Assembly (NCBI GenBank): GCA_017881315.1
Contig: JADGRB010000017.1
Location: 1 to 38,839, forward strand
Length of the DNA: 38,839 bases
Source of the DNA: Pseudomonadota bacterium
Lineage (GTDB): Bacteria; Myxococcota_A; Polyangia; Fen-1088
Direction: 5' to 3'
In this document: in pieces, positions 11,262 to 30,685 of the stretch
Layout: the number at the start of each line of letters is the position of its first letter
Numbering within the stretch: the stretch's first letter is position 1
Made by a program: the position numbers and the translations under genes
The notes under the pieces: generated by a model
The model's database searches: none
What the model was told of the DNA's origin: nothing
The model's input: the letters and a program-made list of their open reading frames with translations, nothing else

Positions 11262-11284
11262 GTGGGACCCTGGGAGGGTCCCAC
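11262..11284 (+). terminator. Hairpin directly after pyrD
   Basis: A perfect 10-bp stem (GTGGGACCCT / AGGGTCCCAC) with a 3-base GGG loop begins three bases after the pyrD stop. It is followed by a run of C rather than T, so it is either an RNA-end stabilising hairpin or a terminator lacking a U tract. Confidence 0.6.
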
Positions 11285-18581: not shown

Positions 18582-18610
18582 AGATATCAGCTGACCCCCA
18601 GCTGATATCT
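18582..18610. terminator. Perfect 12-bp hairpin between convergent genes
   Basis: AGATATCAGCTG and CAGCTGATATCT flank a 5-base ACCCC loop, without mismatch. It lies between the stops of the lipoprotein gene and the FHA gene and could end transcripts from both sides. An extra AGATATC copy stands just before the left arm. Confidence 0.75.
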
Positions 18611-25897: not shown

Positions 25898-26526
25898 GCT
25901 CTAGCAACTGCGGGGGCGCATCGGTCGAAAACGGAGCCGTGCAGGTCAATGACGCGACGGTCGCTCCGGTCGTTCGAAAGGATGATCCTTCCGTCGGTGG
26001 TGCGGCGGACGCAACTCGGCGGGCAGCCCGCTCCAGCCCGCGTTTCCGCGACACGCTTGCGCGCGGCGGTTCCGTTGGTGCAACCGGGGTAGGGACGGAG
26101 ACGGCCATGGCGGCGGCGCTGGCGGGGTGGTTTCGTGGCGAGCCGGCGCCTCGGTCGCCGGCACCGCCTCCCATCGCGCCAGCCCCGCCGCCGGCGCCCC
26201 CGTCGAAGATCGATCGAATCTTGGTCGGGGACGTTGGCGGTGAGGTCCAGGCGCGCATCCGGATCGGGTCGGGCGAGCTGGCCGGGGCCGAGATACGACT
26301 GACTTCGGCGCCCGGATCACGCGCCGTGGCCGCTGAGCTCTTGACACGAACCGAGGGTTCGCGGCAGACGCTTTCAGTGGCGATGAACGAGCTCCGACTT
26401 CGGCTGCGAAGCAAAGGGATCGCGCTGGCGGCGACGGCGACGCGCCCGCGCCATCCGGACGGCCATGGCGCGGGCGGGTCGAACGACGGCGGCGGGTCCG
26501 AGTCCGGCGGCGGGACCGATCGGTGA
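25894..26526 (+). CDS. Type III secretion needle-length / FliK-like protein (SctP-like)
   Basis: The 210-residue ORF begins at TTG. An in-frame GTG 45 bases later is another option. The first ~100 residues are Pro/Ala-rich and disordered (PAPPPIAPAPPPAPPSK). Residues 105-180 fit the C-terminal domain of FliK/YscP/HpaP proteins: GDVGGEVQARIRIGSGELAGAEIRL, then VAAELLTRTEG and SVAMNELRLRLRSKGIAL. Those proteins measure needle or hook length and switch export specificity. The match is by pattern, and the position directly before sctQ (GTGA overlap) strongly supports it. No other secretion genes adjoin. The tail is Gly/Ser-rich. Confidence 0.6.
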   Translation: MSSSNCGGASVENGAVQVNDATVAPVVRKDDPSVGGAADATRRAARSSPRFRDTLARGGSVGATGVGTETAMAAALAGWFRGEPAPRSPAPPPIAPAPPPAPPSKIDRILVGDVGGEVQARIRIGSGELAGAEIRLTSAPGSRAVAAELLTRTEGSRQTLSVAMNELRLRLRSKGIALAATATRPRHPDGHGAGGSNDGGGSESGGGTDR

Positions 26527-27605
26527 ACGTCGAACCATTCGATCTCGGCAAGTGCCCCTCGGTTCGGGCCGCGGACGCGGCGGCGAGCCGCGCGGCGCTT
26601 CGCGTCCTGTCGATGCTTCCGCCGCGCTGGCGGGTCGATCTGCCGGTGCTCGATTCGGTGATCGTGACGGTGGTGGGGCCCGATTTCGAGATCCGCCCAT
26701 CCGATCTGCCGGATCCGACGGATTCGATCGCCCTCCAGATCGCGCGTGCGACGGAGGTCGGACGTCTCACCTTGACGTCGTCGTTCGCGGTGCGGCTCAT
26801 CGATGCCGCGCTGGGGGCGCGGGGTGCGTTTTCGGCGGCGCGAGCCCTGGGTCCGGCCGAGCGCGGTGTTCTGGTCGCGCTCGTCGCCCCGGTCCTCGAC
26901 ATCCTCGGTTGGTCGTTGAGACTCGGATCCCCGTCGCCAAGCACCGGCGCTCGCCTGCGCCTGGCGCTGCGAATCGAGGGGTCAATTGGCGCGGGCGTTC
27001 TCGGGCTCGACTTATCGCGTGGCGCGTCGGTGTCGGGCGACCACTGGCGCGCACGCGCCGGCGAGCTTCCGGTGATCGCGCGGGTGGAGATAGCGGCGAC
27101 CGAGCTACGCGCGGCGAGCCTGGTCGGCCTCGCGCCGGGCGACGCGCTGGTGTTCGATGGCCCGCGCGCCGCGAGCTACCTGGGCGAGGGTGCCCGCGAT
27201 CGCTGGGAGGGGCGGCTGGCCATCGGGGCGTATGTCGCCCCGCTTCATATCGAGCCCGACGGCAGCCTGGAGCTGGCGGGAGACTTTCAACTGACCGGAA
27301 CGCCGCTGGAGCGGACAGTCGCCATCAAGAGGGAGGAAGCCATGGACGTTTCAGGACCAACCGAGAAAGCCACTGCAGCGCTCGCAGGGGCGCCCATCGA
27401 GGTGCTCGCCGAGCTGGCGCGGATCACGCTCCGCGGGGACGAGGTGCTCGGGCTCGCGCCGGGGGTGGTGCTGACGGTTGCGGCCGACCGGCGGCACGCG
27501 ATCGCACTCCGGGTCGGCGGCGAGATCTGGGCGGAAGGCGAGCTGGTCGACGTCGACGGTCAGCTCGGCGTTCGCGTCACGCGGATGCTCAAGACGGGCC
27601 GCTGA
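26523..27605 (+). CDS. sctQ: Type III secretion cytoplasmic ring protein SctQ (YscQ/HrcQ/FliM-N-like)
   Basis: The 360-residue protein starts at a GTG overlapping the sctP-like stop. It builds the cytosolic sorting platform of a type III secretion system. Residues 20-140 match the variable SctQ N-terminal part. A first SPOA domain covers about 180-255 (VIARVEIAATELRAASLVGLAPGDALVF). A second SPOA domain lies at about 288-357 (PIEVLAELARITLRGDEVLGLAPGVVL, ending VDVDGQLGVRVTRML), like FliN and YscQ-C. Two SPOA domains in one chain is the non-flagellar arrangement. An internal ribosome site and ATG precede the second domain. The gene ends 63 bases from the convergent glycogen-synthase-like gene. 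Confidence 0.85.
   Translation: MNVEPFDLGKCPSVRAADAAASRAALRVLSMLPPRWRVDLPVLDSVIVTVVGPDFEIRPSDLPDPTDSIALQIARATEVGRLTLTSSFAVRLIDAALGARGAFSAARALGPAERGVLVALVAPVLDILGWSLRLGSPSPSTGARLRLALRIEGSIGAGVLGLDLSRGASVSGDHWRARAGELPVIARVEIAATELRAASLVGLAPGDALVFDGPRAASYLGEGARDRWEGRLAIGAYVAPLHIEPDGSLELAGDFQLTGTPLERTVAIKREEAMDVSGPTEKATAALAGAPIEVLAELARITLRGDEVLGLAPGVVLTVAADRRHAIALRVGGEIWAEGELVDVDGQLGVRVTRMLKTGR
27342..27605 (+). CDS. Predicted internal translation product SctQ-C
   Basis: Within sctQ, GGGAGG stands five bases before an in-frame ATG at codon 274. The product would be 87 residues (MDVSGPTEK...MLKTGR) and covers precisely the second SPOA domain. In Yersinia YscQ, Salmonella SpaO and Shigella Spa33 an internally translated C-terminal fragment of nearly this size is made and helps build or stabilise the sorting platform. 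The position, size and strength of the ribosome site make the same device likely here. Confidence 0.65.
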   Translation: MDVSGPTEKATAALAGAPIEVLAELARITLRGDEVLGLAPGVVLTVAADRRHAIALRVGGEIWAEGELVDVDGQLGVRVTRMLKTGR

Positions 27606-27668: not shown

Positions 27669-29021
27669 TCAGAGTCCGACGCTGACGAGGCTGCCCACCA
27701 TCTCGACCAGCGCGGTGGCGGTGGCCGTCCATCGGGGCGCGCTGCCGATCAAGGTCGTCACCAGCGGCGCCCAGATGTCGCCATCGGCGCGCAAGGTGAG
27801 CGCGCGCCGCACGGCGCTCTCGATCTCGAAAGGGGTAGCGGCGCTGTAGAGGATGGCGTGGCCGGTCCGTGAGGCGGGATCGTAGTCGACCAGATAGTCC
27901 CGGTTGGTCCCGACGTCCGGGGTGATGGGAAGCGTTCCGTAGAGCAGAGCCAGGCCGGCGGACCGTCCGATTCGATCGTGGTCGTCGCCGAGCAGGATGG
28001 CGTCCGCGGCGCCGCGCGCCAGCCGCTCGTCCGTCGGTTCGGCACCGGGGAAAATCGCGATGCGCCCCGGCTGCCGCAACGCCAGCTGCCTCGCCCGCTC
28101 GATCGACTGCTGGTCTCCGCGCGGCACGATGATGGTGGCGACGTCGAACGGGGCCAGCCGCTCGATGCCGGCCAGGAGCGCGTCGGCGTCGGCCTCCTGG
28201 TGGAGGGGGCCGGTCGTCAAGAGTAGCGTGCGCGGGCCGAGCGCCAGGGAACAGCGGCGGGCGATCGCGCGCCGGCATTCGGCTTTTCCCGACAGCGCGG
28301 CCGCGCTGAAATTGGCCGGCAGCGCCGGGTCGGTGGCGGGATCGTTGGGCGGCTCGTCACAGCCGAAGCGCAGGCTCACGAAGGGCTCGTCGGAGGCGCG
28401 CGAGGCGAGACCGGGATCCGACTCGCTGGCCCGGGCGGCACTGGGGCTGGGGGCGACGATCGCATTCGCGCCCAGGCATCCGAGAGCGACCAGCGAGTGC
28501 GAGGCCGAGTCGTCACCGAGCAGCAGCGGGCCCAGGAGCTGGGATTCTTCGGGGGCGAGCGGCGCGCCCGTCTGTCCGGTCGGCAGCACGAACAGCCTCA
28601 CCGACGCCGAGCTGGCTGACAGGGCGGCAGCCGAGGATTCACCCCAGCCGATCGCCACCTCGGGCGAAACCAGCTTGTCGGCTGAGAGGGATCGAACAGC
28701 GCCAGCCAGCAGAGCCGTCGCTTCGGCGCGCGTCGGGGCGTCGGCGCCGAGCACCAGCAGCTGGGCATCGCTCAACACCGCGCGACCTTCGTAGAGCGTC
28801 AGCTCGTGCGTCCGTGCGCCGACCGTCGCGGAGACAGTGCGCAGCCGGCGGGCCAGACCCGGCACGCGGCCCGCTGCTTCCGTGCTGGCGAGCGCCAGAA
28901 CCGTTGCCCGGTTCCCGAGGGCCGCCAGGGCTCGACTGAGCCCATTCGCGCCGATCGCGGCGACCCCCTCACCGAGCGGCGCAACCGCTTCGGTTATGAT
29001 CAGAAAATCGCGTCCGGCCAA
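27669..29021 (-). CDS. Degenerate glycogen/starch synthase-like (GT5-type) protein
   Basis: The 450-residue protein follows the two-domain GT-B layout of GlgA. The stretch NDPATDPALPANFSAAALSGKAECRRAI matches the GlgA hinge (normally NPATDPxLPxxY...GKxxCK). ALLYGTLPITPDVGTNRDYLVDY matches the C-terminal nucleotide-sugar region. The catalytic signatures are missing: the N-terminal KxGGLGDV is replaced by GEGVAAIGANGLS, and the C-terminal EPCGLxQ by a DRIGRSAGLA segment. I therefore expect it to be inactive as a glycogen synthase, or strongly changed in function. The length is slightly under the usual 470-500. Its ATG is one base after the stop of the RHH gene, so the two form an operon. Confidence 0.75.
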   Translation of the reverse strand: MAGRDFLIITEAVAPLGEGVAAIGANGLSRALAALGNRATVLALASTEAAGRVPGLARRLRTVSATVGARTHELTLYEGRAVLSDAQLLVLGADAPTRAEATALLAGAVRSLSADKLVSPEVAIGWGESSAAALSASSASVRLFVLPTGQTGAPLAPEESQLLGPLLLGDDSASHSLVALGCLGANAIVAPSPSAARASESDPGLASRASDEPFVSLRFGCDEPPNDPATDPALPANFSAAALSGKAECRRAIARRCSLALGPRTLLLTTGPLHQEADADALLAGIERLAPFDVATIIVPRGDQQSIERARQLALRQPGRIAIFPGAEPTDERLARGAADAILLGDDHDRIGRSAGLALLYGTLPITPDVGTNRDYLVDYDPASRTGHAILYSAATPFEIESAVRRALTLRADGDIWAPLVTTLIGSAPRWTATATALVEMVGSLVSVGL

Positions 29022-29262: not shown

Positions 29263-29335
29263 AGTGTAAGTGGGCGTATCATCTCGTGTCAAGGTCGTGT
29301 CCGACCTTGACGGATCACTCCTGGCGATTTACTCT
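29263..29335. promoter_or_regulatory. Divergent promoters with both -35 boxes inside one palindrome
   Basis: The perfect palindrome GTCAAGGTCG / CGACCTTGAC (29288-29311, TGTC centre) puts a TTGACA (minus) and a TTGACG (plus) back to back. Toward the RHH gene, TACACT follows after 18 bases. Toward the DksA-type gene, TACTCT follows after 17. One protein bound here could block or set both promoters. Confidence 0.6.
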
Positions 29336-29387: not shown

Positions 29388-29765
29388 ATGGACGGGACCG
29401 GGCTGAAGAAGAAGGATCTCAAGCGGTTTAGCGACATTCTGCTCGCCAAAAAGAAAGAGATTCTCAGAAACGCGCAGCGGACGCTCAACGAGGACATGAC
29501 GCTGGATTCGGACGACCTGCCCGACGAAATGGATCTGGCATCGTCCGAATACCTGCATTCGTTCACGTTCCGCCTGCGGGGGCGCGAGAAGGTCTTCCTG
29601 CAGAAGATCGATCACGCGCTGGAGAAGATCAAAGAGGGGACGTTCGGCGTCTGCGAGCAGTGCGGCGAGCCGATCTCGATGAAGCGCCTGGAGGCGCGGC
29701 TCGAGACCACGCTGTGCATCCGGTGCAAGGAAGACCAGGAACGGATCGAAAAGGCATATGGGTAG
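29388..29765 (+). CDS. DksA/TraR family zinc-finger transcription factor
   Basis: The preferred start (MDGTGLKKKDLKRF) gives 125 residues. ATG at 29361 is an alternative, and neither has a strong ribosome site. A long helical hairpin covers residues 5-75, with acidic DEMDLASSEYLHSF at its tip, where DksA inserts acidic residues into the RNA polymerase channel. The zinc finger has four Cys (CEQCGEPI...CIRC) near residues 90-115, followed by a helix ending KAYG. It should bind RNA polymerase and, with ppGpp, adjust transcription at stress or starvation. Its promoter shares a palindrome with the divergent RHH gene. The MepA gene follows almost at once. Confidence 0.9.
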   Translation: MDGTGLKKKDLKRFSDILLAKKKEILRNAQRTLNEDMTLDSDDLPDEMDLASSEYLHSFTFRLRGREKVFLQKIDHALEKIKEGTFGVCEQCGEPISMKRLEARLETTLCIRCKEDQERIEKAYG

Positions 29766-29773
29766 CCGCTAGC

Positions 29774-30685
29774 TTGGCCTGGTCCGGGCGACTGGCGCCC
29801 GTGCTGGTTGGGCTGGTCCTCGCGGGGTGCGCGGGGCCGATGGCGGTGGAGTTTGGGAGCGCGTCGGTCGGGACGAGCGGGGAGGGTACGCTCCGCCATC
29901 CGGCGCTGTTGCCGTTCGAGGGCGATGGCTACGCGGTGCCGGCACCCTGGCGGACGCGGCACGCCAACTACGGGACCGAGGAGCTGGTCGGCGCGGTGGT
30001 CCGGGCGTCGCGGGCGGTGGCGGCGGAGGCGCCGGGCGGCGTGGCCGCCGTCGGCGACCTCTCGCATCGCTCCGGCGGTGAGTCGGTTCAGCACCGGTCG
30101 CACCAGAGCGGCCGCGACGTGGACGTCTTTTACTACGCCATCGACGGGAGCGGTCGTCCGGTTCGGCTGGCCGATGCGATGTTGCACTTCGCTCCCGACG
30201 GGCGGGCCCTGCGCTGGTCGCCGCCGCAGGGGACCCGGTCCCCCGCGCGTCCGGTACCGGCCTATCGCTTCGACGCGCGCCGAAACTGGGCGTTCGTGCG
30301 GGCGCTCCTGAACGATCCGGACGTCGAGGTCCAGTGGATCTTCATGCAGCGGAACTTGGCGGCGGCGTTGCTCCGGGAGGCGACGGTCGCCGGTGACGAT
30401 CCGGCGCTGCTGGCGCGGGCGGCCTTCGTGATTCACGAGCCGTCCGATTCAGAGCCCCACGACGATCACATGCATGTGCGGCTCTTCTGCGATTCGGGCG
30501 ATCGGCGGCTCGGCTGCGCCGACCGAGGGCCGATCCGCTGGTGGAAGAAGCTGTGGAAGTACATGGACGCGCCGTATGGCCGCCCGCCCGCGGACGCCCT
30601 GGGCCCGGACGGCATCGCGGCGCTCGGGCGCCTCTTCCGCGAGGAGCTGCCGCTGGTGCTCACGGCGGGGAAACAGACCAGCTAG
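29774..30685 (+). CDS. MepA-like penicillin-insensitive murein endopeptidase, lipoprotein
   Basis: The track ORF starts inside the DksA-type gene. TTG eight bases after that gene's stop is the sensible start and gives 303 residues with a lipoprotein signal (LVLAGC). The MepA (M74, LAS-type) zinc site is clear: the QHRSHQSGRDVDVFY motif with His and Asp ligands near residue 110, and DDHMHVR with the last His near 230. The loop GDLSHRSGGES and the YGTEELVGAV lead-in also match. MepA cuts D-Ala-mDAP cross-links in peptidoglycan and is untouched by penicillin. As a lipoprotein it would face the periplasm. Co-transcription with the DksA-type gene suggests expression under growth or stress control. 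Confidence 0.88.
   Translation: MAWSGRLAPVLVGLVLAGCAGPMAVEFGSASVGTSGEGTLRHPALLPFEGDGYAVPAPWRTRHANYGTEELVGAVVRASRAVAAEAPGGVAAVGDLSHRSGGESVQHRSHQSGRDVDVFYYAIDGSGRPVRLADAMLHFAPDGRALRWSPPQGTRSPARPVPAYRFDARRNWAFVRALLNDPDVEVQWIFMQRNLAAALLREATVAGDDPALLARAAFVIHEPSDSEPHDDHMHVRLFCDSGDRRLGCADRGPIRWWKKLWKYMDAPYGRPPADALGPDGIAALGRLFREELPLVLTAGKQTS

Follow-up and report, generated by a model that had tools for sequence, protein, structure and literature searches.

Back-to-back promoters of a conserved cdbA-dksA gene pair and the palindrome between them, probably a lineage-specific by-product

The window, which is the whole stretch of 38,839 nucleotides analysed here and comes from an uncultured myxobacterium, contains two gene units that point away from each other on either side of a 161-bp intergenic region (Table 1). 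The leftward unit starts with a gene for a small ribbon-helix-helix (RHH) protein, which is followed by a gene for a GlgA-like protein. The rightward unit starts with a dksA gene, which is followed by a gene resembling penicillin-insensitive murein endopeptidases. The GlgA-like gene adjoins a gene for an SctQ/FliM-FliN-like protein (26523-27605, plus strand), whose match to TIGR02551 (E=1.6e-22) lies under the cut-off and whose match to PF01052 lies above it, which suggests a switch gene of a type III secretion or flagellar-type system.

Table 1. Genes, promoter elements and repeats around the intergenic region, in window coordinates
Feature	Position	Strand	Basis or remark
GlgA-like (glycogen-synthase C-terminal-like) protein, downstream of cdbA	27669..29021	-	TIGR02095 79.9 bits, far under the 328-bit cut-off
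cdbA ortholog, 67 aa, TIGR04563, ribbon-helix-helix	29023..29226	-	TIGR04563 E=1.4e-34; PDB 6SBW E=3e-27
-10 box TACACT, cdbA (RHH) promoter	29263..29268	-	promoter scan; identical in G001, G002
Perfect 7-bp direct repeat GACACGA-CCTT-GACACGA, overlaps cdbA -35 box	29284..29301	-	4-bp spacer as in the geometry of CdbA sites (PMC7156744)
-35 box TTGACA, cdbA (RHH) promoter	29287..29292	-	promoter scan; same spacing in G001, G002
Perfect inverted repeat GTCAAGGTCG-TGTC-CGACCTTGAC	29288..29311	none	not conserved in relatives
-35 box TTGACG, dksA promoter	29307..29312	+	TTGACG/TTGACT, 17-bp spacing likewise in G001, G002, G006
-10 box TACTCT, dksA promoter	29330..29335	+	TACTCT/TATTCT/TATCCT in relatives
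dksA, 125 aa, C4 zinc finger, PDEMDLA (DxxDxA) tip	29388..29765	+	Pfam DksA_N and zf-dskA_traR above cut-off
Penicillin-insensitive murein endopeptidase-like (peptidase M74), downstream of dksA	29774..30685	+	PF03411 E=1.2e-15; start codon uncertain

Profile and sequence comparisons identify the RHH protein as an ortholog of Myxococcus xanthus CdbA. It passes the TIGR04563 cut-off with 117.7 bits against 65, and the only solved relative found by phmmer is M. xanthus CdbA itself (PDB 6SBW), which aligns without gaps over residues 1-62. The protein shares with M. xanthus CdbA (MXAN_4361; 6SBW/6SBX; TIGR04563) its length of 67 amino acids and the residues K8, S10, Y12, R27, R30 and W34, and differs from it in having Tyr for Phe at position 50. 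The alignment to 6SBW thus places in the window protein all four of the residues K8, S10, R27 and R30, paired substitutions of which abolish the binding of both c-di-GMP and DNA by M. xanthus CdbA (PMC7156744). The surroundings of the two genes differ: the window gene is followed by the GlgA-like gene and is divergent from dksA, whereas M. xanthus cdbA is followed by cdbB. TIGR04563 was named in no paper found in the literature search.

The M. xanthus protein, the only one for which c-di-GMP and DNA binding have been demonstrated (PMC7156744), is a tetrameric, c-di-GMP-binding nucleoid-associated protein that occupies 569 sites and whose depletion has little effect on transcription (PMC7156744; PMC10313047). 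Its motif is a direct repeat with a separation of four base pairs, it binds upstream of its own gene with a Kd of 0.9 uM, c-di-GMP competes with DNA for it, and its gene is essential (PMC7156744). The genome of the window (G000) encodes two further TIGR04563-like proteins, 75% and 49% identical to that of the window (G000:C277:2123-2314 and G000:C380:16550-16702), and these are possibly CdbB-like paralogs. In several of the TIGR04563 matches in G336, G065, G093 and G059, one TGA lies inside the matched open stretch; these may be pseudogenes, overruns of the true stop, or frame errors.

The product of the first rightward gene has both domains of DksA, the DksA_N coiled coil and the C4 zinc finger (PF21157 and PF01258, both above cut-off), together with the four zinc-finger cysteines and the DxxDxA tip. 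Its score falls slightly under the equivalog cut-off of TIGR02420, the family of the RNA polymerase-binding protein DksA (E=7.7e-31, 106.8 bits against 115.5), so that DksA-type protein is the safe name. The genome holds three other zf-dskA_traR proteins. In M. xanthus, dksA is reportedly essential, according to the title of Garcia-Moreno 2009, which PMC7156744 cites.

The two units are served by two predicted promoters of the sigma-70 type, placed back to back. Both strands carry a pair of hexamers separated by 16-18 bp, and both pairs are kept in relatives. The cdbA promoter, TTGACA-18-TACACT, is the sole promoter-like match of the scan in the region (1 found, 0.1 expected), and the same sequence is present in G001 and G002, two genomes of the same genus as the window. 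The dksA promoter, TTGACG-17-TACTCT, is weaker, with 8/12 matches, and lies under the threshold of the scan tool. It is supported by the retention of TTGACN-17-TAYTCT in G001 and G002, where it reads TTGACG-17-TACTCT or TTGACT-17-TATTCT; both promoters are also retained in G006. If transcription begins 7 bp past each -10 box, the two starts would be about 86 bp apart.

Between these promoters lies a perfect inverted repeat, with 10-bp arms that are complementary at 10/10 positions and a 4-bp loop. The -35 boxes of the two promoters make up the outer parts of this repeat. The original prediction had described divergent promoters around one palindrome that holds both -35 boxes in its arms; the sequence and the promoters of the relatives confirm this arrangement, and the span from -10 box to -10 box, 29263-29335, was given correctly. 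The palindrome was also considered as a terminator or transcript hairpin, and this was rejected: there is no terminator-like site in the region, and the repeat stands upstream of both predicted starts. The evidence for the palindrome comes from a single assembly, a fragmented one of 541 contigs.

When the intergenic region was shuffled, 21 of 20,000 shuffles gave a perfect repeat with arms of at least 10 bp and a loop of at most 10 bp. Counted over the 38.8-kb window, several such perfect repeats are present, and about 2 would be expected. Examples are AGATATCAGCTG at 18582-18610 (12-bp arms, 5-bp loop) and GTGGGACCCT at 11262-11284 (10-bp arms, 3-bp loop). Much of the symmetry of the intergenic repeat arises because two -35 boxes stand head to head and so supply GTCAA...TTGAC. 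Given GTCAA-N14-TTGAC, the chance that the remaining five pairs match is 0.001; given CCTTGAC in both arms, the chance for the remaining three pairs is 0.016. The surplus symmetry beyond CCTTGAC is weak, and it was singled out post hoc.

The relatives found are Myxococcota/Deltaproteobacteria assemblies, and their comparison separates what is conserved at this locus from what is not. In G001 and G002 the RHH protein is 100% identical to that of the window, the DksA protein is 100% and 93% identical, and the GlgA-like protein 91% and 73%, respectively. The palindrome is absent from both genomes, despite the identical RHH protein and the two retained promoters; in G002 only six bases of the arms match, GTCAAG/CTTGAC. 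An alignment of the window with G001 shows almost unchanged flanks (the leader and the -10 sequences); between the -10 boxes, only GTCAAGG and CCTTGAC, the two -35 boxes, have escaped divergence. CCTTGAC is found at the dksA box in G002 as well, and in relatives it is often present on the cdbA side too; in 24 of the 28 regions that could be measured, a C precedes the TTGAC of the cdbA box. A gap of 14 bp separates the -35 boxes in the window; it is 60 bp in G001, 13 bp in G002 and 73 bp in G006, and over the 28 regions it ranges from 13 to 231 bp. Among 50 cdbA-dksA intergenic regions, that of the window is the only one with the palindrome. One other region (L050) has a different 9-bp repeat that involves the cdbA box, and another (L092) has a G+C-rich repeat elsewhere in the region.

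The gene pair itself is widespread within the class. The upstream DNA was long enough for an assessment at 76 loci; dksA lies divergent from cdbA within 400 bp at 45 of these and within about 2 kb at a further 14, some of the latter seemingly with a gene between. Several families of one class have the pair; the examples come from the family of the window, from Kofleriaceae and from relatives of Nannocystis, and the identity of DksA at the paired loci goes down to 48-65%. Paraliomyxa miuraensis (L113) is a cultured relative with the divergent pair. The pairing is not a feature of the whole phylum: the 18 loci examined in other families or classes all lack dksA within about 2-3 kb. Both promoters stand out as clearly conserved blocks in Kofleriaceae. 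The spacer of the cdbA promoter is strongly conserved there (L066-L102), with CTTGACAC-N2-TGTAGG...CGAAACT, and the same loci have a C-TACA element some 20 bp ahead of the -35 box of cdbA; the sigma-70 consensus accounts for neither, and each may be a regulatory site. The CdbA literature searched contains no mention of the pairing, and dksA appears in it only in a reference list.

By comparison of these genomes, the conserved object at the locus is the divergent gene pair with its two promoters, and not the palindrome. The original prediction linked the two units as wholes. This link stands for the genes of the RHH protein and DksA, which form a conserved pair; it does not extend to the M74 hydrolase and GlgA-like genes, which are found beside the pair in no family but that of the window and are passengers outside the conserved core.

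The promoters are kept, the gap between them varies, and the spacer has diverged outside the -35 boxes; the palindrome is therefore best regarded as an accidental or lineage-specific juxtaposition. The explanation that we consider quite probable is that ordinary sigma-70-type promoters stand back to back, and that the palindrome is a by-product of their placement in this lineage rather than a conserved operator. Each promoter would need a -35 box of the form (C)CTTGACN. The 14-bp head-to-head spacing of these boxes in the window species would yield most of the inverted repeat, and a few extra matching bases would complete it. This explanation leaves the three base pairs beyond CCTTGAC to chance alone, at about 1.6%, which is a point against it. 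The palindrome itself is probably ordinary.

From standard polymerase geometry, two RNA polymerases with starts so close to each other would have adjacent sigma region-4 footprints. The alpha-CTDs of each might contact the -35 region of its partner, leading to competition for the upstream DNA and to mild mutual interference. Such interference is plausible in the window species and in G002, and less so where the gap is at least 60 bp. The similar gaps of the window and G002 might mean that compact packing has been selected in part of the genus. Any binding of CdbA here would be of the moderate-affinity, direct-repeat type known from M. xanthus, would be relieved by c-di-GMP, and would have a modest effect on transcription at most.

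A direct repeat of this kind does overlap the cdbA -35 box, and GACACGA-N4-GACACGA is a fair candidate for a CdbA site. It is possible to imagine that a CdbA tetramer binds it and represses its own promoter, and that c-di-GMP lifts the repression. The repeat and its 4-bp spacer fit the reported site in geometry, and M. xanthus CdbA binds ahead of its own gene, with c-di-GMP competing against the DNA (PMC7156744). However, G002 lacks the repeat, and across 86 regions upstream of cdbA a period of 11 occurs no more often than others, for which reason a CdbA-type direct repeat was rejected as a conserved autoregulatory site. Autoregulation through this repeat thus seems rather unlikely. G001 has another period-11 direct repeat, GCATGCACCTCGCATGCACC, which falls between its -35 boxes some 100 bp ahead of cdbA (L046).

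Another dimeric regulator might have recruited the palindrome as its operator in the window species only. Perfect 10-bp arms are as rare in such a region as the shuffles indicate, and arms that span both -35 boxes occupy the typical position of a repressor. Against this, the 5.47-Mb genome contains the 20-bp core only once even when one mismatch is allowed, no exact copy outside the window genome was among the matches listed for 290 genomes of the class, and there is no candidate regulator. Such an operator is very unlikely. A wider role as the operator of a regulon was rejected after the same searches of the genome and of the 290 class genomes, in which hits with two mismatches are scattered and for the most part resemble GTCGAGGTCGAC.

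The proposed switch, in which a dimer of the RHH protein itself sits on the palindrome over both -35 boxes and selects one unit or the other, is highly improbable: RHH proteins can bind inverted repeats (PMC7156744), M. xanthus CdbA does bind in front of its own gene (PMC7156744), and cdbA and dksA are conserved divergent neighbors, but the operator of an unchanged protein should persist wherever a sister species retains both promoters, and it is absent from G001, G002 and altogether 49 of the 50 intergenic regions, the genome search called for by the original prediction gave no near-copy of the core, and CdbA recognizes a direct repeat and barely alters transcription when depleted (PMC7156744). 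The locus resembles known back-to-back divergent promoters that have the gene of a DNA-binding protein on one side, and the -35 boxes are central here as well. Unlike in such known pairs, the characterized ortholog of the DNA-binding protein is nucleoid-associated and not a classical repressor, and the palindrome between the promoters is not conserved.

A divergent gene pair that is conserved and includes a DNA-binding protein often reflects a functional link, and the cdbA-dksA pair is therefore a lead to a connection between c-di-GMP and the stringent response. From the arrangement we infer that cdbA and dksA may be co-regulated. One might go further and suppose that the region is a control point for two messengers, at which CdbA, released by c-di-GMP, and DksA, assisted by (p)ppGpp, adjust each other's expression across the divergent promoters; this supposition is speculative and unlikely as it stands. 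If it were true, chromosome organization and the stringent response would be tuned together in a branch of the myxobacteria. The divergent pair, a testable lead to such a link, is a more useful outcome of the check than the palindrome itself.
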